NCBI GenBank assembly: GCA_001577055.1
Contig: LSCG01000024.1
Span: forward strand, 1-32,254
Direction: 5' to 3'
Source of the DNA: Fidelibacterota bacterium TCS56
Lineage (GTDB): Bacteria; Fidelibacterota; Marinisomatia; Marinisomatales; TCS56
Length of the DNA: 32,254 nt
Shown here: positions 1-25,845 of the stretch, in pieces
Layout: each line of letters opens with the position of its first letter
Numbering within the stretch: position 1 is the first letter of the stretch
The notes under the pieces: generated by a model
Told to the model about the DNA's origin: nothing
The model's database searches: none
The model's input: the letters and a program-made list of their open reading frames with translations, nothing else
Program-made: the position numbers and the translations under genes

Positions 1-50
1 GCAGTGGCCTTTTAAGCCATTGGCCGAGCGTTCGAGTCGCTCCGGAGTCA
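1..50 (+). tRNA. tRNA-Lys (anticodon TTT), 3' partial
   Basis: Anticodon arm GTGGC-CTTTTAA-GCCAT, T arm GAGCG-TTCGAGT-CGCTC, 3' acceptor strand CGGAGTC + A; the 5' half lies outside the window and CCA is not encoded. Confidence 0.85.
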
Positions 51-298: not shown

Positions 299-783
299 AA
301 AGAGGGAATCCAGGCTGCTTAGTGGCCTTCGGTAGTTCTCATCCAACAGATCCACGTAGTATTTTTCTGTTGTTTTTACCGATGCATGGCCTAGCAGTTT
401 GGATACAGTGTATAAATCAGCTGATCCTGACTGAAGCAGGATACTGCCGAACGTCTTACGTAATGAGTGCAGGTTTGCCCCTTCAATTTCGGCCAGCTTG
501 TAATAGTCTGCAATCTTATGGCTGACAAAGTCAGGTTTGAAATCGAATGGATATTCACGGCCTTCCCTATTTATTTCTTTAAGTACTGCATACAGAGTAT
601 CGTTCATTGGAATATACCTGCGATTTGTACCTTTCAGGCCAACAAGAACAATCTTCTTTTCGCGGAAGTTGACATTTTCCCATGAGAAATCCGGTGCTAG
701 CAATTCAATGCGCCTCGCACCAGTATTTAAATAGGCCAATATCAAACGCTGGAATTGTCTGTCCTCTTCTGTTACTTTTAGTC
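287..783 (-). pseudogene. Tyrosine recombinase/phage integrase, catalytic domain only (N-terminus lost)
   Basis: Catalytic motifs TGARRIELL, KGTNRR, HSLRKTFG, LLGHASVKTTEKYY; frame reads upstream as LPGLKVTEEDRQFQRLILAYL and then meets a stop, so the N-terminal core-binding domain is absent. Confidence 0.85.
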
Positions 784-870
784 CCGGAAGTCATCGGCGC
801 CCATCTTGCCGCGCAGGGTATTGGCGATGTTCCAGAGCTGTTGTTCGAGGTGTTGTTTGGTGTCGTTTAT
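778..870 (-). pseudogene. hsdM: 5' remnant of type I restriction-modification methyltransferase HsdM
   Basis: Manual minus-strand translation 870->778: INDTKQHLEQQLWNIANTLRGKMGADDFRD*, matching the conserved HsdM N-terminus (LWNIAxxLRGxMxADDFRDY); first codon ATA, stop right after FRD. Confidence 0.8.
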
Positions 871-871
871 A

Positions 872-3013
872 TTAATTATTGAAGCGCGAGTTTACGTAAC
901 TGGCGATTTCCCTGGTCGGTAATTCTGGTGAGGAATTTCCGCTTCTCAGATAGAATTTGTCAGATTTTACCCCCTTGTTGTCGGTCACAGATGTGTACAA
1001 CGGTTTGAGACCGGGATTTATTTCAACCACACAAATTTCCGTATCTTGAACTTCTGGAAAAGTGACCTGCAGGAAATTGGAAGTGAATTCCCGTCCATAT
1101 GCTGCACTGGCAATATTGAGAAGATGCAATTCAAATTCATCCTTGGTGCCATTATGCAAAGTTTGGTAATCTTGTTCTAGTCCAATTATCTCCATATCAT
1201 CATTCACGCCCATAATCAATGTACCTCCCTGGGCATTACTGAAAGCGGCAATCGTCTTCAAAATTGCCTGTTCTAGTTTTTTGTTAACCGCTCCTGTTTT
1301 CAGATCGTACCTGAGTGTAGTTTTGAATTCCACCAGATTGTTTTCACCGGCCGAAATCATATCAAACAGATCCATTTTTATTTCATCGACTGCTGTTTCA
1401 GTGATATTCTGCAGAAATTCATTCAATTCATCAGCTAGCATCTGCCTCCTCGCTGCCAAGAATTGTTCGAAATTCTCCAGTTTCCAGAGGTTTGCATCAT
1501 CAGGAATACACTGTAATGCCAGCCCATTCGGAAACTTCTCATTAACTTCTCTCAAATAGCCGTCAGCATACTGGGCTGATTTTGTTCGATTGGCAGCAGC
1601 AGTTAAAACTGCCCGATTAGTGATCTCCTGGGCATATTGATATTTAATCCGATTGTTAATACCGTAACCGTTATCGCGTAACACTGAATAGGGAAATATG
1701 TGATCCCATTCCAGTTCGTATTTTTTCCCCATATTCTTCCGAATATTGATTCCAGTCGTTAGACAAACGGCATTCTGACTTTTAAAATAAAACTTCATTA
1801 AACCCCACAGCGGATGCTGAATACCAACTCCTTCAAATTCAGCTGGTGTAATCTCAAGATTGCGTTCCAGGGCAATTAAATTCAGCAATTTGTCGAAAGG
1901 ATTTTCTTCATCACGAATTATAGCCAAATCCTTGTCCAGTTTTTGTGGTAGCTGACTAATGTAACGGTATCTGACCTGAGAATAATAGAACCATTTAACG
2001 GTTTTTTTAATTCTCGACTGGCTTAAAGTATTTACCCCATTGTTGTAAGCAAATACAATGATCGGAACAAAAGCGTAGACGGAGTTGACTTCTTTAGTAT
2101 GATCAATGTAAGCCTGAGATTTCAAGATGTTAAATACATAATCCAATACTTCACCATCCAACTTTTCCCAAACTTCACGAATTCTTTCGTTATTACTGCT
2201 GTCGTGTAATTTCTCCATCTTTGATCCCACATTATGCAGGATACCAAGCAGAACATAAATGATAAAATCCAGATTGAAAACGAAGCCGCTTTTTGCTAGC
2301 TTTTTAAGTTTGGTTTTAAACAATGCTCGGGCTTGAGGCCAATATCCACAAATTTGTGCTAAAGCAAGTTCAGCATCTGTCAGGTTGACTCCTGCTGCAT
2401 TTACTATATAGAATATATCAATGGCTTCTTTTACTGATGCCTGTGTTGGTACGATCTGCTCTTTGAAATCACGTTCAGCAATCTTTTCTATAGCATAAAA
2501 ATTATCATCAATGATGTTTTCCAACCTTCGGCTGATTCGATCACCATTCATTTGCTGTTCAAGTTGACTAACAATATCTTTTCTTCGAATTCTACGATTT
2601 AGGATGTCAGTAATGTGAACCCAAAGCGGATTATTGGTCATTATATTTTTCTTATAATACTCCAACTCGAGAGTCTCGACATTGACATATAAAGGTTTAA
2701 TGTCGTGCGTTATTTCTTCTTCTTTGTAGTAGGGAGGTATTTCACCCTTCATTAATATATATAATGTAGTGATACGTTGTTGGCCGTCCAGAATAAGTTT
2801 CACCGAACCCTGTTTAGGATCATACTTGTGATCGCCCTTTAATTCAGGTGGTGTATTGGTTTCCCAGGTTAACATTGTCCCAGTAGGATAATTCTTTATC
2901 AGAGAAGATATGAGATTTTTAGCGTCAGTTCGACGCCACACATATTCACGTTGGAATGCAGGGACAAATAGTTGCTTCTCATCAATATTTACAAGAATCT
3001 GTTTGATTTCCAT
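872..3013 (-). CDS. DUF262 (GmrSD-type) + HNH/DUF1524-like nuclease + C-terminal AlbA_2/Schlafen-like domain protein
   Basis: N-terminal FVPAFQREYVW and LILDGQQRITTLY; central LEWDHIFPYSVL...ITNRAVLTAAANRTKS (HNH-like); C-terminal NNLVEFKTTLRYD...KTIAAFSNAQGGTLIMGVNDDMEIIGLEQD and FYLRSGNSSPEL (AlbA_2-like). Confidence 0.88.
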   Translation of the reverse strand: MEIKQILVNIDEKQLFVPAFQREYVWRRTDAKNLISSLIKNYPTGTMLTWETNTPPELKGDHKYDPKQGSVKLILDGQQRITTLYILMKGEIPPYYKEEEITHDIKPLYVNVETLELEYYKKNIMTNNPLWVHITDILNRRIRRKDIVSQLEQQMNGDRISRRLENIIDDNFYAIEKIAERDFKEQIVPTQASVKEAIDIFYIVNAAGVNLTDAELALAQICGYWPQARALFKTKLKKLAKSGFVFNLDFIIYVLLGILHNVGSKMEKLHDSSNNERIREVWEKLDGEVLDYVFNILKSQAYIDHTKEVNSVYAFVPIIVFAYNNGVNTLSQSRIKKTVKWFYYSQVRYRYISQLPQKLDKDLAIIRDEENPFDKLLNLIALERNLEITPAEFEGVGIQHPLWGLMKFYFKSQNAVCLTTGINIRKNMGKKYELEWDHIFPYSVLRDNGYGINNRIKYQYAQEITNRAVLTAAANRTKSAQYADGYLREVNEKFPNGLALQCIPDDANLWKLENFEQFLAARRQMLADELNEFLQNITETAVDEIKMDLFDMISAGENNLVEFKTTLRYDLKTGAVNKKLEQAILKTIAAFSNAQGGTLIMGVNDDMEIIGLEQDYQTLHNGTKDEFELHLLNIASAAYGREFTSNFLQVTFPEVQDTEICVVEINPGLKPLYTSVTDNKGVKSDKFYLRSGNSSPELPTREIASYVNSRFNN

Positions 3014-3029
3014 TTCGACCTCTTATTAA

Positions 3030-3385
3030 TTATATTATTCGCAATACACCCACAATAAACTCCGGATATCCCCTGATCCGCTCCAGCAGATTGGTCTTTT
3101 CGTAAACAGCCAGCCCAGCTTCCTTCGCCTGATCCTCGATGTGATTTATCCATTCTCTCGGCGGTTTGAACGTTTTAGTTTTTGTTGATTTACTTGCTCC
3201 CCCGATAATAACCCAATCAAACAGTCCAATATTCGTAAAAGTCAGCCGTTCCAGCATTGGTTCGCAAGAAAGGAATTTAACCTTTGCTTTGACCTTTTTA
3301 AAAGCATCTTCCGCCCGTTTCACATTCGACTGGTTATTCCGGTCTATTCGTACAGTGATTCCGGAGTTACTCGTACAGTTTGATT
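3030..3385 (-). pseudogene. DUF5131 / phage Gp37-Gp68 family protein, C-terminal fragment
   Basis: RIDRNNQSNVKRAEDAFKKVKAKVKFLSCEPMLERLTF...FDWVIIGGASKS; the family's N-terminal half is missing and the frame ends in a stop upstream. Confidence 0.65.
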
Positions 3386-3494: not shown

Positions 3495-5129
3495 TTAATA
3501 CATTCCGTCCATGCCGCCGCCTCCGGGAGGCATCGGCGGTGCCGGTGGTTCCTTCTCGGGAATCTCGGTCACAACCGCTTCGGTGGTCAGCAGCAATCCG
3601 GCGATGGATGCGGCATTTTCCACGGCCACACGGGCAACTTTAGTGGGATCAATGATACCGGCATTAAACATATTGGCGTATTCTTCACTGCGGGCATCGA
3701 ACCCGTAGTCAGATTTGCCTTCCATTACCTTCTGAACCACAATCGAGGGTTCCATACCGGCATTAAAAACAATCTGACGAATTGGTTCTTCCAGCGCCCG
3801 GCGCATGATATTGACACCAACAGCCTGATTTTCGGACACATCCACTTTATCCAGACTGGCGATGGAACGCAGCAGGGCTACGCCGCCACCGGGGATAATA
3901 CCTTCTTCAACCGCGGCGCGGGTTGCATGTAATGCATCTTCCACACGGGCTTTCTTCTCTTTCATCTCCACTTCGGTGGGGGCGCCGGCATACAGCACGG
4001 CTACACCGCCGGACAGCTTGGCCAGCCGTTCCTGCAGTTTCTCCCGGTCATAGTCGGAAGTGGTTTTTTCAATCTGGACTTTAATCTCATTGATGCGGGC
4101 CTTGATAGCTTCCACATCGCCGCTGCCGTCAACGATGGTAGTATTATCTTTGTCAGAGACGACGCGCTTGCAGGTACCCAGGTATTCCAGGGTGGCATTC
4201 TCCAGCTTATAGCCTTGCTCTTCCGAGATAACGGTGCCACCGGTGAGGATGGCGATATCTTCCAGCATGGCTTTACGACGGTCACCAAATCCGGGGGCCT
4301 TGACGGCCAGAACTTTGAAAGTACCGCGCAGACGATTCACCACCAGGGTGGCCAGGGCTTCCCCTTCCACGTCTTCGGCGATGATCAGGATGCTGCGGCC
4401 GGCCTGGACTACTTTTTCCAGAATCGGCAGCAGATCTTTCATATTGCTGATCTTTTTATCATGGATCAGGATATAAGGATCTTCCAGTTCCGCTTCCATT
4501 TTCTCGGAATTGGTCACGAAATAGGGTGACAGATAGCCGCGGTCGAACTGCATGCCTTCTACCAGTTCCAGGTAGGTTTCGGCAGTCTTGCTTTCTTCAA
4601 TGGTAATAACGCCATCTTTGCCGACGTTGTTGAAAGCTTCGGCGATTTTTTCACCGATTTCACTGTCGTTGTTGGCTGAGATAGTGCCCACCTGAGCCAC
4701 TTTTTCCGGCTCGATGCCGATTTCCTTACTCTGGGATTTTAAGCCGCCCACAATCGCTTTGGCGGCGGCGTCAATACCACGTTTAATTGACATGGGATTG
4801 GCGCCGGCGGTGACGTTGCGGATTCCTTCGGTGATAATGGCCTGGGCCAGCACGGTGGCGGTAGTGGTACCATCACCGGCTACATCGGAAGTCTTGGAGG
4901 CAACTTCGCGCACCATCTGGGCGCCGACGTTTTCCAATTTATCGTCCAATTCAATTTCTTTGGCAACCGTCACACCATCTTTGGTAATGGTCGGGGCGCC
5001 AAATTTCTTTTCGATCACCACATTGCGACCTTTCGGTCCCAGGGTAACCCTGACAGCATCGGCCAGTTGGTCCACACCGGCTTTCAGGCCGTTGCGGGCT
5101 TCCAGATCATAGGTAATTTCTTTTGACAT
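3495..5129 (-). CDS. groL: 60 kDa chaperonin GroEL
   Basis: Full-length match by eye: [47 protein letters not shown]-terminal [11 protein letters not shown]. Confidence 0.99.
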
Positions 5130-9934: not shown

Positions 9935-10270
9935 TTACTCCTTGACAGGCGGTTCTTTTTGTCCCTGGTGACAGGTCCAGCAGGTGACCTGATCAGCGCC
10001 ATCCCAATTCAGGAACTCAGTATTGATATTCCGGGTCATCTTCATCATACCACGGGCGGCCAGCTTATGTTTTTTCTGATCCGAACTTTTATCGCTCATA
10101 TTATGGCAAAAAACGCATTTCACGCCCAAGTCGTCAGATATCCGCTCCATGTACATTTTCAATTCCTTTTTAGACGCGGGTTTCATGACCAGCAAGTTTT
10201 TAGGGCCGGTTTGAGCCCATCCGATACCGATAGCGATGATTAATCCCAATATTGTGATTTTCTTGGTCAT
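9935..10270 (-). CDS. Di-heme c-type cytochrome, PRC-cytochrome c subunit-like
   Basis: Signal peptide; two CxxCH motifs (CVFCH, CWTCH), LGVKCVFCHNMSD...ARGMMKMTRNIN pattern. Confidence 0.8.
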   Translation of the reverse strand: MTKKITILGLIIAIGIGWAQTGPKNLLVMKPASKKELKMYMERISDDLGVKCVFCHNMSDKSSDQKKHKLAARGMMKMTRNINTEFLNWDGADQVTCWTCHQGQKEPPVKE

Positions 10271-10282
10271 TTTTCCCTCCTG

Positions 10283-11370
10283 TTAAAACCAGTTGTGAAT
10301 TTGCATCAGAATTTCGGGCTGCCGCCCGTCTTCCGCAACAGATTGTGTTTCGTTAAATCGGGTCTGTAAGACAATTTCCAGCATATTCAGTGGATAGATA
10401 TTCATACCGAAGGTGAAGCGATTAACCGCTCCCGTCAAATTTTCAATTTCCGGATCATAATACTGGAATTCCCCGCTGAGATCCAATCCGGGAATTATCC
10501 GCCACGATAACCGTTGGTAAAGTGCCAGAGACCGGCTGCCGGTGCTATTGTAATTCAAAGCCAGCGCCGCTTCCCCCAGCCAGGTTAGTTTCCATCGATG
10601 GATCCCCCCGTGAACACTGGTTAATGAAATATCATCTTCAGCCAAATAACTGGTACCCAGATATAACTTGCCGGCAGGCATTTCGAAATAATAATCCAGA
10701 TCAAGGTGAAAATGTTGAAAGCCCTGACTAAAACCAGAATTCCACAAACTGCTTTCCTGATTGATGAAAGAACCTCCCACCCAGGCCGACAAATGCAGCA
10801 TTTCTTGGTAATTATAGCCCAATTGCACCACCACCGGTGCTGCCTTCCGGGGAGAAAATGGCAAACCTTCGGTGGCTGTAGGCAGTTTACGCAGACTTAG
10901 ATTACCGCCTCGAACAAATGCCGAATGGTCCGCCAGTCTCAGACCAAAATCCACCGCTTTTTGCCCCGCCAGCAACCAGCCCCCGGCGCCCAGATTTATT
11001 TTGGTCCAGTAGGCTGTGCCGGGTCAGCCGTTCAAATTAAAGCTGAAATATAACTCAGCCATTGAATTTATAATTATTTGGGAATAAATATCGGCCTGCA
11101 TGGGAAAGATTCTCCCCTGCCGGTTTTCATCCCCGTGATAATTCAAGTATTGCACCCGGAAATCACCACCCATACGTACCTGTTCGTCAATTAATCCATC
11201 CCATTCGGGAAGGGTATGCTTACGTCCGTTTACCAACGGTAATTCATCAGCGCCAAAATAGACCAGTCCGTAATCCGTACGGAGGCCACCGCCGGCTGGA
11301 TCCACGTGACAAAGGTTGCAGGAATACCCACTCTCAACAGCGAAACGCGGCTCAGCCCAGACTGTCGCCC
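10283..11370 (-). pseudogene. CxxCH-containing outer-membrane porin-like protein, interrupted by in-frame TGA and lacking its 5' end
   Basis: WAEPRFAVESGYSCNLCHVDPAGGGLRTDYG...ELYFSFNLNG[TGA]PGTAYWTKINLGAGGWLLAGQKAVDFGLRL...; ORFs 11024-11458 and 10283-10975 are in the same frame (11026-10975=51). Confidence 0.75.
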
Positions 11371-11648
11371 GCCGGCATCCGGCTGCCATGATCGGGGGAT
11401 TTATCCAGACGGATTTTGTCGTACAACGGACTGGCAACGGCATCCCCAGGAACGACAATTAACGACCCATATTGATTTCAGTTGCTGGACATGGAACTGC
11501 TATAACTGGTGAGGGTCACTCCGCTGCTGCCGCCATGACAATTAATACAATTGGAATTAAAAACCGGCTGTACCTGACTGGAATAATCCACCTGGGCTGA
11601 TAATAAACAAAACAATGACAGAAACGATAAGATTAACTTTACTTTCAT
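11352..11648 (-). pseudogene. Mono-heme cytochrome c, interrupted by in-frame TGA and 3'-truncated
   Basis: MKVKLILSFLSLFCLLSAQVDYSSQVQPVFNSNCINCHGG...SSSMSSN[TGA]NQYGSLIVVPGDAVASPLYDKIRLDKSPDHGSRMPAGDSLG*. Confidence 0.75.
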
Positions 11649-11734
11649 AATTGTTCCTATCCCCCCTGGTTTATCCCCGTTTGACAGGGTGTAACTATCT
11701 TGCCATAAACCGGTTCCCAAAAATAATCACGGCT

Positions 11735-20595: not shown

Positions 20596-21591
20596 TCACA
20601 ATGATATTTGCTGTCCCCTGCCCTGCTGGCGGGCATTTTCAATAATCAACTGGGCCGCCGCTAAATCCTGGACGGCATTACCCACGGATTTGAAAAACGT
20701 AATGTCAGCATCGGATTTTCGACCGATGACGGTTCCGCTAAAAAGCTCACCCAATTCCCCGATGATGTGTCCCTCCCCGATAATACCCTGGTCCCGGGCT
20801 TGTATCAGATCACCGGCTTCATCCCAGCAATTCTGTTGCGAGTCGGTAAAAACACGCGCACCGGCGATGGTTTCGGCCGGGATTTCACTCATCCGGGGCG
20901 TATACGATCCCACCCCGTTGATATGGGTACCGGGGCGCACCCATTCAGGCAGGAAAACCGGTTTGGTGGCAGTGGTTGCCGTGCACACCACATCGGCGGT
21001 TGATAGCGCTGCCTGAGCATTTGCCGTGTGTACCGTAATTCCCAATTCACTGCTCAACATTTGCGCGAAATTCTCACTCCGCTTCCGATCTAGATCGACT
21101 ACTGAAATTTCTTCGATGGAACGAACGGCACAGACTGCCTGGGCCTGGGTACGTCCCTGGGTACCGGCGCCGAAGATCACCAGGCGGGTCGCATCCCGCC
21201 GGGCCAGCAGATCGGTGGCCAGCCCGGAGGCCGCCCCGGTACGGATGGCCGTGAGCACCGCCCCATCCATCACGGCCTGAGGAATACCGGTCTCAGCATC
21301 GAAAACCGTCACCAGCGCGTGGATCAGGGGCAGGTCCCGGGCTGGATTATTGTTATTTATCGTAACGGTTTTTAATGCCAGTTTAGAGCTGTCCGGCAAA
21401 TAAACGGGCATAAACAGGGCCATACCGTTATGCTTGTCAATCGGCAAGTGGATCCGCCGGGGAACTTTGGCATTGCCGTCCGACAGTTGGGCGAAAGCCG
21501 GCCCCATAACCCCAATGGCTTCCTCCATCGGTAATAAATCAATAACATCAGCAGCCGCGATAAATAATATCGTACTCGAGGAGTAATTCAT
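20596..21591 (-). CDS. Ornithine cyclodeaminase/mu-crystallin family protein; candidate delta1-pyrroline-2-carboxylate reductase
   Basis: VPRRIHLPIDKHNGMALFMPVY, IRTGAASGLATDLLARRDATRLVIFGAGTQGRTQ; role inferred from the neighbouring gene. Confidence 0.88.
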   Translation of the reverse strand: MNYSSSTILFIAAADVIDLLPMEEAIGVMGPAFAQLSDGNAKVPRRIHLPIDKHNGMALFMPVYLPDSSKLALKTVTINNNNPARDLPLIHALVTVFDAETGIPQAVMDGAVLTAIRTGAASGLATDLLARRDATRLVIFGAGTQGRTQAQAVCAVRSIEEISVVDLDRKRSENFAQMLSSELGITVHTANAQAALSTADVVCTATTATKPVFLPEWVRPGTHINGVGSYTPRMSEIPAETIAGARVFTDSQQNCWDEAGDLIQARDQGIIGEGHIIGELGELFSGTVIGRKSDADITFFKSVGNAVQDLAAAQLIIENARQQGRGQQISL

Positions 21592-21595
21592 ATAA

Positions 21596-22642
21596 TCAGC
21601 GCAACATAAAACCCAATTTCAAGGGGTCATCGGGATCAATCAATATTTCATTGCGACCGGTAATATGGGCCTGCCCCTCCACCGCCGGGATAATAACCTT
21701 TACATCATCCATCTCCATAACTTTAGTCACCGTACCGGTGAAACGCGTTCCTAAAATGCTTTCAACCACATAGGGTTGATCGATAGCCACTTCATCGCGG
21801 GCAAAATGAAGCGCCAACAGACCGGATACGCCGGTGCCGGTGGGACTGCGGTCCACTTCTCCATCGGCGAAGACACAGACGTTGCGACAATCGACGCCAT
21901 CGTTAGTCGAAGGAGCCGTAAAAACAGTACCGTATAAAAATCCCAGGTCCGGCTCATCCGGATGGATGATGGACCGTTCGGCGGCCACGGCCTGCTTAAT
22001 CCGCCGTCCGTAATCCACCAGGCGGGTGAAATCATCAGGATCGCAGGATAAATCGAAATCTTTGGCATTTACATAGGAATAATAAGCGCCGCCAAAGGCC
22101 AAATCATATTGCACCTGTCCCAAACCGGGGACCTGGACCGTTTGATTCAGGGTTTCAACGAATGAGGGCACATTCAGAAATTTCACTGACTTGACCCGGT
22201 TATCGGCTACCCGGGCAACGGCGGTAATCAATCCGGCAGGAGAATCGATCCTTAAAGTAGTAAACGGTTCCAGAGCCGGCATCATCCCCGTTTCCAGAAC
22301 GGCGGTAGCCACCGCAATAATACCATGGCCGCACATGGTGCTGTAACCTTCATTATGCATGAAAATCACGCCGAAATCAGCCTCAGGTGTACAGGGTTCG
22401 GTTAACAGGCAACCGTACATATCCGCATGTCCCCGGGGCTCCCACATGGCAGCCATCCGGAAAAAATCCAGATTATCAGCCACAAATTGACGTTTTGCTA
22501 AAATGGTATTACCGGGGATTGGTGGATATCCTCCCAGGAATAATCGCAGAGGTTCGCCGGCGGTGTGGATTTCCAGGGTTGTGAGCCGACGCCATTCTGC
22601 GCCGGGTTTCCAGTTAACAGGTAGATTCAGTTTGCCAAGCAT
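21596..22642 (-). CDS. trans-3-hydroxy-L-proline dehydratase (proline racemase fold)
   Basis: EIHTAGEPLR, GYSTMCGHGIIAVATA (Cys) and DRSPTGTGVS with Thr in place of the racemase/epimerase second Cys. Confidence 0.88.
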   Translation of the reverse strand: MLGKLNLPVNWKPGAEWRRLTTLEIHTAGEPLRLFLGGYPPIPGNTILAKRQFVADNLDFFRMAAMWEPRGHADMYGCLLTEPCTPEADFGVIFMHNEGYSTMCGHGIIAVATAVLETGMMPALEPFTTLRIDSPAGLITAVARVADNRVKSVKFLNVPSFVETLNQTVQVPGLGQVQYDLAFGGAYYSYVNAKDFDLSCDPDDFTRLVDYGRRIKQAVAAERSIIHPDEPDLGFLYGTVFTAPSTNDGVDCRNVCVFADGEVDRSPTGTGVSGLLALHFARDEVAIDQPYVVESILGTRFTGTVTKVMEMDDVKVIIPAVEGQAHITGRNEILIDPDDPLKLGFMLR

Positions 22643-22703
22643 TTTATTTTCCCCTCGGGTTTTTACTTAATCCTACACTTCAATCTGCGTTTGCCATCTC
22701 CTA

Positions 22704-25061
22704 TTATTCCGAATGTTCTGTGCGTCGTATAATTTCATTTTGCAGTTCTTCACTGAGATCGACAAAATAATCACTGTACCCCGCCACCCGCACGATTAAA
22801 TCTTTAAATTCCTCAGGATTGGACTGTGCTTCACGCAATGTTTTGGCGGTGACCACGTTAAACTGAATATGATGGCCGTCCAGGCTGAAATAGGAGCGGA
22901 CCAACTGGGAGACTTTTACCAATCCCGCCTCGTCAGCCATCAACTGGGGAGTGAATTTCTGATTCAGGAGGGTGCCGCCGGTGCGCAGGTGGTCGATTTT
23001 GGCGGCTGATTTGATCACCGCCGTCGGGCCTTTGCGGTCGTTGCCCTGCACCGGTGAAATGCCTTCCGACAATGGTTTCCCGGCCCGGCGACCGTCTGAA
23101 GTGGCTCCGATTACACTGCCGAAATACACATGCGAGGTTGTTGGCAGCAGATTGATCCGGAAATAACCGCCCTTGGTATTGGGCCGCCCATCCACGGCGG
23201 AATAGAAGCTCTCAAAAACTCTTTTCGTGATACTATCGGCATAATCATCATCATTGCCGTAGTGCGGCGCAGCCCGCAGAGTTTCACGCAGTACATCGTA
23301 TTCAGTAAAATTGGCCTGCAATGCCGCAAGTAAATCTGACATGGCAATCGTCTGCTTATCATAAACCTGATATTTGATCGCCGCCAGCGAATCGGTGAGC
23401 GTACCCAAACCCACACCCTGAATGTAAGCCGAATTATAGCGGGCGCCACCGGCGTTATAATCACGTCCCGTAGCAATGCAATCGTCAATCAGGATGGACA
23501 TAAACGGCGCCGGCAGATAGCGGGCCCACAATTGTTCAATGATCCGGTTACCGCGGATTTTAATATCAATAAAATGATTTAACTGCACTTCCCAGGCCCG
23601 ATATAAATCATCGAAATCACTAAAGATCTGCGGGTCACCGGTTTCGGGGCCAAGCTGCTGTCCGCTGCGTGGATCGTAACCGTTATTCAGGGTAAGTTCC
23701 AGAATCTTGGTCAGATTGAAATACCCGGTGAGAATGTAAGCTTCCTTGCCGAAAGCGCCGGCCTCAACACAGCCGCTGGCTCCCCCGCAACGGGCGTCGG
23801 CAAGTGATTTTCCCTGCCGCACTAATTCGGCCACAATCGCATCGGTATTAAACAACGAGGGCTGGCCGTAACCGGTTTTAATAATTTTCAAAGCCCGTTT
23901 CAATAATCGGTCCGGTGACTTCTTACTGACCTGTACCATGGAACTGGGCTGCAGCAATCGCATTTCCTCAATTACGTCCAGGATCAGGTAGGATAATTCA
24001 TTGGCGGCGTCCTGGCCATTTTCATCGACTCCCCCTACATTAATCAGGCAAAAATCGGTGTAAGTATTGCTTTCCTGCGCGGTTACGCCAACCTTGGGAG
24101 GCGCGGGCTGATTATTGAATTTTATCCAGAAGGCCTGCAATAATTCCCGGGCCTGTTCTTCGGTAAGCTCCCCTGATTCCAATCCCTGCCGGTAAAACGG
24201 CAGCAGGTGCTGATCCAGACGGCCGGGATTAAAGGAATCCCAGGTATTCAGTTCGGTGATTACTCCCAGGTGGACAAACCAGTAATACTGCAGGGCTTCA
24301 TGAAAATTCGCCGGCGCATTGGCCGGGACCGAATCACAAATCCGGGCGATTTTCCGCAATTCCTGTTGACGGTGTTCATCGGTAGTTTCATCAGCCACAC
24401 GCCGGGCTTCATCGGCATGCCGTTCAGCGAATGATATTAAAGCCCCGGCAGCGATGTCCATGGCAGTCAACTGATCACGTTTTGCCAGGAAATCCTGATC
24501 AATCATTTGATCCAGACCATTGATGGAAGCGGCAATCTGGCGGCGGAAATCCGCCATTCCAAAGCGGTAGATTTTATCATCATTCACGGTATGTCCGGGA
24601 GCACGCTGCTCCATGAACTCGGTAAAAATCCCGGCGGCATAGGCCTGGCGCCAATCCTGGTCCACTTCCTTAAACAGGCGGTCGCGCAGGGAGCGGTCCC
24701 GCCAGAACGGCGTAATCTCTTCCTGCTGTAGACGCTTGACCTCATCACCGGCGGCAAACGGTATTTTTTCACGGGTGGATAAAATCTCGAAATCATCAGT
24801 AGAATGGGTACAGATTTCCGGATAAGTAGGTGTGGCTTTCGGTGCAGGTCCACGCTCGCCTACAATTAATTCATCCTCACCGATAAAGACTTTCTTATGG
24901 TCCAGTAAATAGGCAAAGGCCCGGGCGCGGGCCACCGGTACGGCTACTTTTGCGGCCTGTCCTGATTGATAAAATTCAGTTAATATTTGGGCCCGTTCCA
25001 ACGAAATAACGGGCCGGGCGTCCAGACTGGCTTGCCGCAGGCGTTTTATTCGATCATTCAC
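22704..25061 (-). CDS. hypD: trans-4-hydroxy-L-proline dehydratase, glycyl radical enzyme
   Basis: PTYPEICTHSTDDFEIL, FTEFMEQRAPGHTV, KFNNQPAPPKVG, GGASGCVEAGAFGKEAYILTGY (GCVE site), GGARYNSAYIQGVGLGTLTDSL, C-terminal RVAGYSDYFVDL glycyl loop. Confidence 0.93.
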   Translation of the reverse strand: MNDRIKRLRQASLDARPVISLERAQILTEFYQSGQAAKVAVPVARARAFAYLLDHKKVFIGEDELIVGERGPAPKATPTYPEICTHSTDDFEILSTREKIPFAAGDEVKRLQQEEITPFWRDRSLRDRLFKEVDQDWRQAYAAGIFTEFMEQRAPGHTVNDDKIYRFGMADFRRQIAASINGLDQMIDQDFLAKRDQLTAMDIAAGALISFAERHADEARRVADETTDEHRQQELRKIARICDSVPANAPANFHEALQYYWFVHLGVITELNTWDSFNPGRLDQHLLPFYRQGLESGELTEEQARELLQAFWIKFNNQPAPPKVGVTAQESNTYTDFCLINVGGVDENGQDAANELSYLILDVIEEMRLLQPSSMVQVSKKSPDRLLKRALKIIKTGYGQPSLFNTDAIVAELVRQGKSLADARCGGASGCVEAGAFGKEAYILTGYFNLTKILELTLNNGYDPRSGQQLGPETGDPQIFSDFDDLYRAWEVQLNHFIDIKIRGNRIIEQLWARYLPAPFMSILIDDCIATGRDYNAGGARYNSAYIQGVGLGTLTDSLAAIKYQVYDKQTIAMSDLLAALQANFTEYDVLRETLRAAPHYGNDDDYADSITKRVFESFYSAVDGRPNTKGGYFRINLLPTTSHVYFGSVIGATSDGRRAGKPLSEGISPVQGNDRKGPTAVIKSAAKIDHLRTGGTLLNQKFTPQLMADEAGLVKVSQLVRSYFSLDGHHIQFNVVTAKTLREAQSNPEEFKDLIVRVAGYSDYFVDLSEELQNEIIRRTEHSE

Positions 25062-25065
25062 GTAT

Positions 25066-25845
25066 TCAGCCTCCTATGCTCACTGCAATCCCCCGCTCGG
25101 TAAAAATCTGGCTCATTTGTTCCAATTTGGTTGATGCTTGTGTTGCCATCGATTTCAACCTGTTGTTCAGGTTAAACCGCTGGAATTTATCCCGGGCCAG
25201 CAGGTTGAACGGTAGTAAATCTACGGGTATTTGTTTATCCAGCGATTTAATAAAATCGGCAACAGTCACGAGATTCTGCTCGGTATCCGTGATGGTTGGA
25301 ATCAGCGGGACCCGGACACGCACTTTTTTATTGTTCTGCACCAGGTAGCGCAGATTGTCCAAAATCAATTGATTGGATGCGCCAACATTTTCACGATGTA
25401 GTTCATCATCGGCCAGTTTTAAATCATACAGAAACAGATCGACAATTTCAGCTACCCGCTTGAAATCCGAGCGGTCAGCCAGGCCACTGGTGTCTACAAC
25501 CGTGTGCAGGCCCGCTTCATGGCAGGCATTCAACAAGGCCGACAGGAATTCCGGTTGTAGCAGCGGTTCGCCCCCGGAAAATGTTACGCCGCCTCCGGAC
25601 TGATCATAGAAAATGCGATCTTTCTGTAATTCGGTCATGACTTCGTTCACGGAAACTTCACGGCCAATCAGCTCGTCTTTGCCAGGATACTGGCTGTGAC
25701 TGGGGCGCTCGATACCGGACTTGCGGCTCTCGGGATTGTGACACCACCAGCAGTTCAAGGGGCAGCCCTTGAAAAAAACAGTAGTGCGAATGCCGGGGCC
25801 GTCATGAATGGCAAAATGTTTGATATCGAAGATGATTCCGTTAAT
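25066..25845 (-). CDS. Glycyl radical enzyme activating protein (radical SAM)
   Basis: Frame upstream of the listed ORF reads NGIIFDIKHFAIHDGPGIRTTVFFKGCPLNCWWCHNPES (CX3CX2C); QSGGGVTFSGGEPLLQ. Start probably ATT at 25845. Confidence 0.9.
   Translation of the reverse strand: MNGIIFDIKHFAIHDGPGIRTTVFFKGCPLNCWWCHNPESRKSGIERPSHSQYPGKDELIGREVSVNEVMTELQKDRIFYDQSGGGVTFSGGEPLLQPEFLSALLNACHEAGLHTVVDTSGLADRSDFKRVAEIVDLFLYDLKLADDELHRENVGASNQLILDNLRYLVQNNKKVRVRVPLIPTITDTEQNLVTVADFIKSLDKQIPVDLLPFNLLARDKFQRFNLNNRLKSMATQASTKLEQMSQIFTERGIAVSIGG

Follow-up and report, generated by a model that had tools for sequence, protein, structure and literature searches.

A single intact gene of Fidelibacterota bacterium TCS56 encodes a protein of 713 amino acids in which a GmrSD-type DUF262 domain, a helical linker with an HNH nuclease domain and a C-terminal Schlafen-like AlbA_2 domain are fused in one chain. 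The reading that we favour is that of a GmrSD-family, type IV-like (modification-dependent) restriction enzyme endowed with a third, Schlafen-type effector domain, a putative RNase. The gene is located in a stretch of 32,254 nucleotides, hereafter designated as the window, which represents the start of one contig (LSCG01000024.1), and it is unique in the 1.94-Mb genome of its host. Homologues with the same architecture are broadly distributed among bacteria and some archaea, where they are usually linked to type I restriction-modification genes.

Domain architecture and motif conservation

The triple-domain ORF starts with an ATG and is free of stop codons. Its GC content (37-40% over positions 1001-3000) is lower than that of the flanking genes (ca. 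50%), and a sigma-70 promoter scan returned about as many sites as were found in shuffled sequence. The following features were assigned to this region:

872..3013, minus strand: triple-domain ORF (DUF262, helical linker/HNH, Schlafen AlbA_2), with an AGAGG Shine-Dalgarno-like sequence immediately 5' of the ATG
2351..3007, minus strand: DUF262/GmrSD_N domain, residues 3-221 (PF03235, E=9.7e-29, far over the gathering cut-off)
1406..1813, minus strand: HNH (His-Me finger) nuclease domain, residues ~401-536, with D437 H438, N466 and N475 (motif, model and BrxU match)
875..1363, minus strand: Schlafen/AlbA_2 domain, residues 551-713 (PF04326, E=3.2e-16 at residues 557-696, far over the gathering cut-off)

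Motif conservation was counted in an alignment of 71 full-length homologues, which share 33-70% identity and come from many phyla and from Archaea. The DUF262 domain displays the three motifs of the GmrSD family, namely QR (residues 21-22), DGQQR (76-80) and FxxxN (F201xxxN205), and all of these residues (Q21, R22, D76-R80, F201 and N205) are invariant in 71/71 sequences. Consistent with this assignment, the PADLOC HEC-05 profile (BrxU) matched nearly from end to end (profile positions 27-595 of 600, residues 2-536, E=3.3e-44). The HNH domain is less apparent at the profile level. HNH_4 was matched at residues 417-456 with an E-value (4e-4) slightly short of the Pfam cut-off, and PF07510, which archaeal members match weakly, gave no match to the window protein. 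Yet H438, N466 and N475 are invariant in the 71 homologues, and the AlphaFold2 model predicts a beta-beta-alpha unit at residues 434-478 (strands 434-438 and 467-471, helix 472-478). Motif, model unit and structural alignment with BrxU thus all point to the H...N...N arrangement of the C-terminal His-Me/HNH (DUF1524) domain typical of the GmrSD family.

A full-length AlphaFold2 model based on the family alignment reached a mean pLDDT of 87.5, with a low-confidence hinge at residues 544-546, ahead of the last domain. Foldseek searches of the PDB with this model returned BrxU as the best match (1.5e-13 over 607 columns) and SAMD9 as the next, while a full-length profile retrieved BrxU at 3e-26 and SLFN12/14/11 at ~1e-9 to 1e-8. 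These predictions support a BrxU-like body and a SAMD9/Schlafen-like tail. When modelled alone (pLDDT 91), the C-terminal domain was best matched by hSAMD9 with DNA (7ksp), followed by DIP2311, the rabbit SAMD9 tRNase domain and SLFN14, 5, 13, 11 and 12, with E-values spanning 2e-6 to 7e-4. Its profile detected SLFN11/12/14 at 3e-12 to 7e-11 and, weakly (E=0.011), a PDB entry of 297 residues named CbCash (9ylu), for which a literature search found no description. Pfam profile, model and fold matches to SAMD9/SLFN thus concur on an AlbA_2 fold. This fold occurs once per chain, without the two-lobed (pseudo-dimeric) core of SLFN proteins; with its one lobe, it resembles the SAMD9 domain and is therefore best described as Schlafen-like rather than as a Schlafen protein.

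The Schlafen active site, defined by E-x4-E-h-K with a nearby Asp and Arg (PMC12215978), has its counterparts in five residues of the window protein, E557, E562, K564, D605 and R690. By alignment, the first four correspond to the SLFN E/E/K/Asp, and the YxRxG motif suggests that R690 is the equivalent of SLFN14 R133. In SLFN14, E206, E211, K213 and R133 surround two Mg ions and the E-EhK motif is critical (PMC12215978); SLFN13 has an E/E/D triad (PMC5862951), and the SAMD9L active site is required for translation shut-off (PMC11221667). Together with N593, the five residues are invariant in 71/71 homologues. The E-x4-E-h-K motif is shared by some functionally uncharacterised, stand-alone AlbA_2 proteins of bacteria (L012, L114 and L115) and missing from others (L022 and L113), so that it supports, but does not prove, catalysis.

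Most of what a sequence-only reading of this region had put forward was upheld by these analyses: a single 713-aa ORF, whose coordinates proved exact and whose frame is intact, a GmrSD-type DUF262 domain with its DGQQR motif, an HNH core, a complete AlbA_2 domain with every active-site residue kept and, from profiles, invariant motifs, structure models and PADLOC, a link to GmrSD-type type IV restriction. Structure prediction, which had been proposed as a check, returned BrxU-like and Schlafen-like folds. The suggestion that the added module provides a second targeting or effector activity is plausible, and we lean toward an effector because no residue of the Schlafen catalytic signature is missing from the domain and because, among solved structures, Schlafen and SAMD9 tRNase domains are its best matches. 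The main alternative to the dual-effector reading, which we regard as rather unlikely, is that the Schlafen/AlbA_2 domain is not a nuclease and binds nucleic acid, forming an extra recognition surface that would direct the GmrSD-type HNH nuclease. AlbA_2 domains do bind double-stranded nucleic acid, the best structural match is hSAMD9 in complex with DNA, and work on pAgo proteins treats PF04326 as a DNA-binding domain (PMC6299218). The linker and the Schlafen part are moreover the least conserved regions of the protein (mean pairwise identity of 0.36 and 0.51, respectively, versus 0.59-0.64 in the remaining regions). However, the two glutamates that bind metal are invariant in all 71 sequences, as are the Lys, Asp and Arg residues of the site, and such invariance is not obviously required for mere binding.

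An intact gene in a broken island

The triple-domain gene is surrounded by gene fragments:

1..50, plus strand: tRNA gene truncated to its 3' part, with TTT as apparent anticodon (Rfam RF00005, 36 bits; 5' end cut by the contig start)
287 to ~786, minus strand: tyrosine integrase reduced to its C-terminal part (PF00589 from profile position 28, E=7.6e-17)
781..870, minus strand: remnant of the hsdM N-terminus (30 codons), INDTKQHLEQQLWNIANTLRGKMGADDFRD then a stop (S. meliloti pSymA HsdM, phmmer E=9.5e-10)
3030..3323, minus strand: DUF5131 protein of which a C-terminal piece of 97 aa is left, located immediately 5' of the triple-domain gene (PF07505 positions 146-211 of 243, E=5e-14)

As first suggested from the ORF list, the triple-domain ORF is the only one of the island to be intact. 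The hsdM remnant, which had escaped the sequence-only reading, lies directly downstream on the same strand and is joined to the integrase fragment by an apparent deletion whose junction is approximate. Its position next to an intact gene indicates that the latter most likely once preceded a type I restriction-modification gene and then outlived it. The tRNA gene is the probable integration (attachment) site of the island. No direct repeats marking the island ends stood out and the other end was not found; likewise, no empty site was seen in the groEL-downstream region of related genomes, because gene order differs there and no tRNA gene was found.

Core genes, with groEL and groES, begin past position 3495. 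Elsewhere in the window, CxxCH haem-binding motifs were noticed in several minus-strand ORFs at 9935-11720, of which some seem to be truncated or split. A minus-strand cluster at 20596-25758 looks by eye like ornithine-cyclodeaminase-like and proline racemase/hydroxyproline epimerase-like genes together with those for a glycyl radical enzyme and the corresponding activase, a gene content that suggests hydroxyproline breakdown.

A widespread family linked to type I restriction systems

Database searches revealed that the fusion is far from an isolated oddity. A scan of 84,980 species genomes identified 252 relatives among pattern hits; the protein thus belongs to a family that is widespread and apparently unnamed. 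The best 80 of these 252 relatives were kept for analysis; they are mostly full length, share 51-70% identity by best segment and belong to the Thermodesulfobacteriota, Bacteroidota, Chlorobiota, Planctomycetota, Cyanobacteriota, Verrucomicrobiota, Pseudomonadota, candidate phyla and some archaea. Both PF03235 and PF04326 were found in 53/53 aligned genome members. A tblastn search of plasmids added full-length homologues from Sinorhizobium meliloti (57%), Haloquadratum walsbyi (33%) and the halophilic archaeon DL31 (33%), all with GmrSD_N and AlbA_2. Two close relatives (L085, 9998-11617, and L081, 2026-3636) have the DUF262 and HNH motifs without the Schlafen domain, and this domain may therefore be dispensable.

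In a tree of the DUF262-HNH part, the window protein falls among members from Bacteroidota, Chlorobiota and Thermodesulfobacteriota, with moderate support nearby, and away from L030, a member from the Fidelibacterota, a placement that would be expected if the gene is mobile. Bacterial and haloarchaeal fusions cluster together to the exclusion of DUF262-HNH proteins devoid of AlbA_2 (support 94, not starred), which is compatible with a single fusion event. Among 60 related genomes, the one find was a degraded AlbA_2 remnant of the family in an organism distantly related to TCS56 (L088, G050:C2:902-1510). Viral contigs scanned with the single protein gave no relatives; scanned with the family alignment, they yielded distant DUF262 proteins (23-41% identity, mostly partial in length), and a phage collection yielded low-identity matches alone. 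The triple-domain gene is therefore not a typical phage gene. Related Schlafen modules (~31-37% identity) are carried by other platforms, including shorter proteins in different contexts and, on a viral-labelled contig (L126, 3192-8721), an AlbA_2 domain fused to sigma70-r4/HARE-HTH that adjoins a type I hsdR gene on the opposite strand. The domain is therefore a movable module, as effectors often are.

Clustering of neighbouring genes identified hsdR (42 loci), hsdM (41) and hsdS (40) as by far the commonest partners, mostly on the same strand. Counted over the 46 loci that are flanked on either side by 5 kb or more, an hsd gene occurs within 5 kb in 33 and all three hsd genes occur within 10 kb in 29. 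The hsdM model TIGR00497 was matched in 2 of 41 genomes related to that of the window, a value which, with a narrow model and other organisms, gives an order of magnitude only. The gene (D) was found in several orders, including R-D-M-S (10 loci), D-M-S-R (6), M-S-D-R (5) and M-S-R-D (5), and in 20 loci an hsd neighbour on the same strand is located within 30 bp. The HsdM partners form at least 10 groups sharing less than 40% identity, one of them a singleton (L046) that is possibly not a true HsdM. These varied orders and diverged partners indicate that the gene joined type I operons repeatedly. Type I genes are absent from the other 13 of the 46 well-flanked loci, and the triple-domain protein must therefore be able to work alone. 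The sequence-only reading, while sound on the GmrSD/type IV relationship, had missed both the wide spread of the family and this usual linkage. Enrichment of type I genes near GmrSD homologues was already published (PMC4619093).

Such a linkage evokes a guard of the PrrC type, in which the type I complex would keep the protein inactive until inhibition of the complex by a phage releases the Schlafen RNase. PrrC is kept silent by the type I enzyme to which it is linked, and a phage anti-restriction factor activates it (PMC2610378); here, the gene is inserted between hsdS and hsdR in the five M-S-D-R loci and is tightly packed against hsd genes in many others, and the related Schlafen module of L126 adjoins hsdR. 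We nonetheless consider this mechanism improbable, given the loci devoid of any type I gene, the pairing with at least 10 diverged HsdM types and the situation in the window, where the type I system is a remnant while the triple-domain gene is intact. Most improbable of all is an ordinary GmrSD/BrxU enzyme that carries its C-terminal domain as a neutral passenger, with the copy in the window perhaps left over from a dying island: L085 and L081 dispense with the domain and every neighbour in the window island is broken, but none of the 53 scanned homologues lacks the domain, its site is intact in the 71 aligned and the window ORF has retained every motif.

Relation to known systems and proposed function

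Based on its domains, the protein can be compared with several known systems. With BrxU/GmrSD type IV enzymes (PADLOC HEC-05), it shares the DUF262 domain with QR, DGQQR and FxxxN, the helical linker and the His-Me HNH domain, but it has an additional C-terminal Schlafen domain; the added domains named in a GmrSD survey are DUF4268, DUF4357 and PF01035, not AlbA_2 (PMC4619093). With Schlafen RNases and the SAMD9/SAMD9L tRNase, which rank first among solved structures by sequence and near the top by fold, it has in common the AlbA_2 fold, E-x4-E-h-K, Asp and Arg. In contrast to the double lobe of proven SLFN nucleases, it is single-lobed, as is SAMD9, and attached to a restriction enzyme. The Vibrio cholerae systems TgvAB and GrwAB, as well as RloF, are GmrSD-like, TgvAB and RloF being found inside type I operons (PMC11411939, PMC12137116, PMC4619093). 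However, TgvAB and GrwAB need two DUF262 proteins where a single one is present here: the window is devoid of a second DUF262 ORF, and the genome (88% complete) gives one match to the triple-domain protein. PrrC likewise places an RNase within a type I operon, as do homologues of the triple-domain gene with their putative RNase, but operon position is all that is shared. PrrC itself is an ABC-ATPase anticodon nuclease (PMC2610378) and is not known to contain a DUF262, HNH or AlbA_2 domain.

The closest system in logic is a DUF262-HNH(DUF2081)-HEPN fusion of the VNG7073 type listed in 2013 (PMC3710099), which combines the same ParB-like sensor, HNH DNase and RNase; its RNase is a HEPN domain, whereas a Schlafen-like domain occupies this place in the triple-domain protein. 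Schlafen RNases were also reported as backup effectors near BREX in PMC12839542, whose references include a preprint of 2025 that deals with bacterial Schlafens and their part in defence against phages. No paper naming a DUF262-HNH-Schlafen fusion was found in the literature searched, which excludes the 2025 preprint 10.1101/2025.07.24.666596 on bacterial Schlafens. The linkage of GmrSD to type I systems and the DUF262-HNH-HEPN fusion were both known previously.

By analogy with these systems, we infer NTP use, specificity for modified DNA, cleavage of DNA and of RNA, and a role in phage defence. BrxU is known for NTP-dependent cutting of modified DNA (PMC8565348), and NTP binding and hydrolysis by DUF262 with cleavage of modified DNA by HNH is documented for BrxU, TgvAB and GrwAB (PMC8565348, PMC11411939, PMC12137116); metal-dependent tRNA cleavage and translation arrest by AlbA_2 are documented for SLFN and SAMD9 (PMC5862951, PMC12215978, PMC11221667). 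In the dual-effector reading, the DUF262 domain would bind and hydrolyse NTP and sense foreign, probably base-modified, DNA, which would turn on the HNH domain and lead to DNA cutting. As a second effector, the Schlafen/AlbA_2 domain would act on RNA, most likely tRNA, in parallel or as a backup, so that translation would stop if DNA cleavage fails. Type I systems attack unmodified DNA; with the triple-domain gene travelling alongside their operons, modified and unmodified phages alike would be covered by the pair. More tentatively, these proteins may form a mobile, widespread family that unites modified-DNA sensing, DNA cleavage and Schlafen-type tRNA cleavage, repeatedly recruited by diverged type I operons as a second line of defence. 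If so, prokaryotes would possess their own equivalent of the antiviral tRNases of the SAMD9/Schlafen type, and its trigger would be defined.

Should the Schlafen domain be an RNase, restriction of modified phage DNA and an arrest of translation held in reserve would be united in a single protein. Bacterial Schlafen-like domains would then gain a concrete trigger to test, as well as a link to the antiviral tRNases of animals, SLFN11/13/14 and SAMD9. That the gene has paired with diverged type I systems time and again suggests that restriction operons have here a general means of dealing with phages whose DNA is modified.
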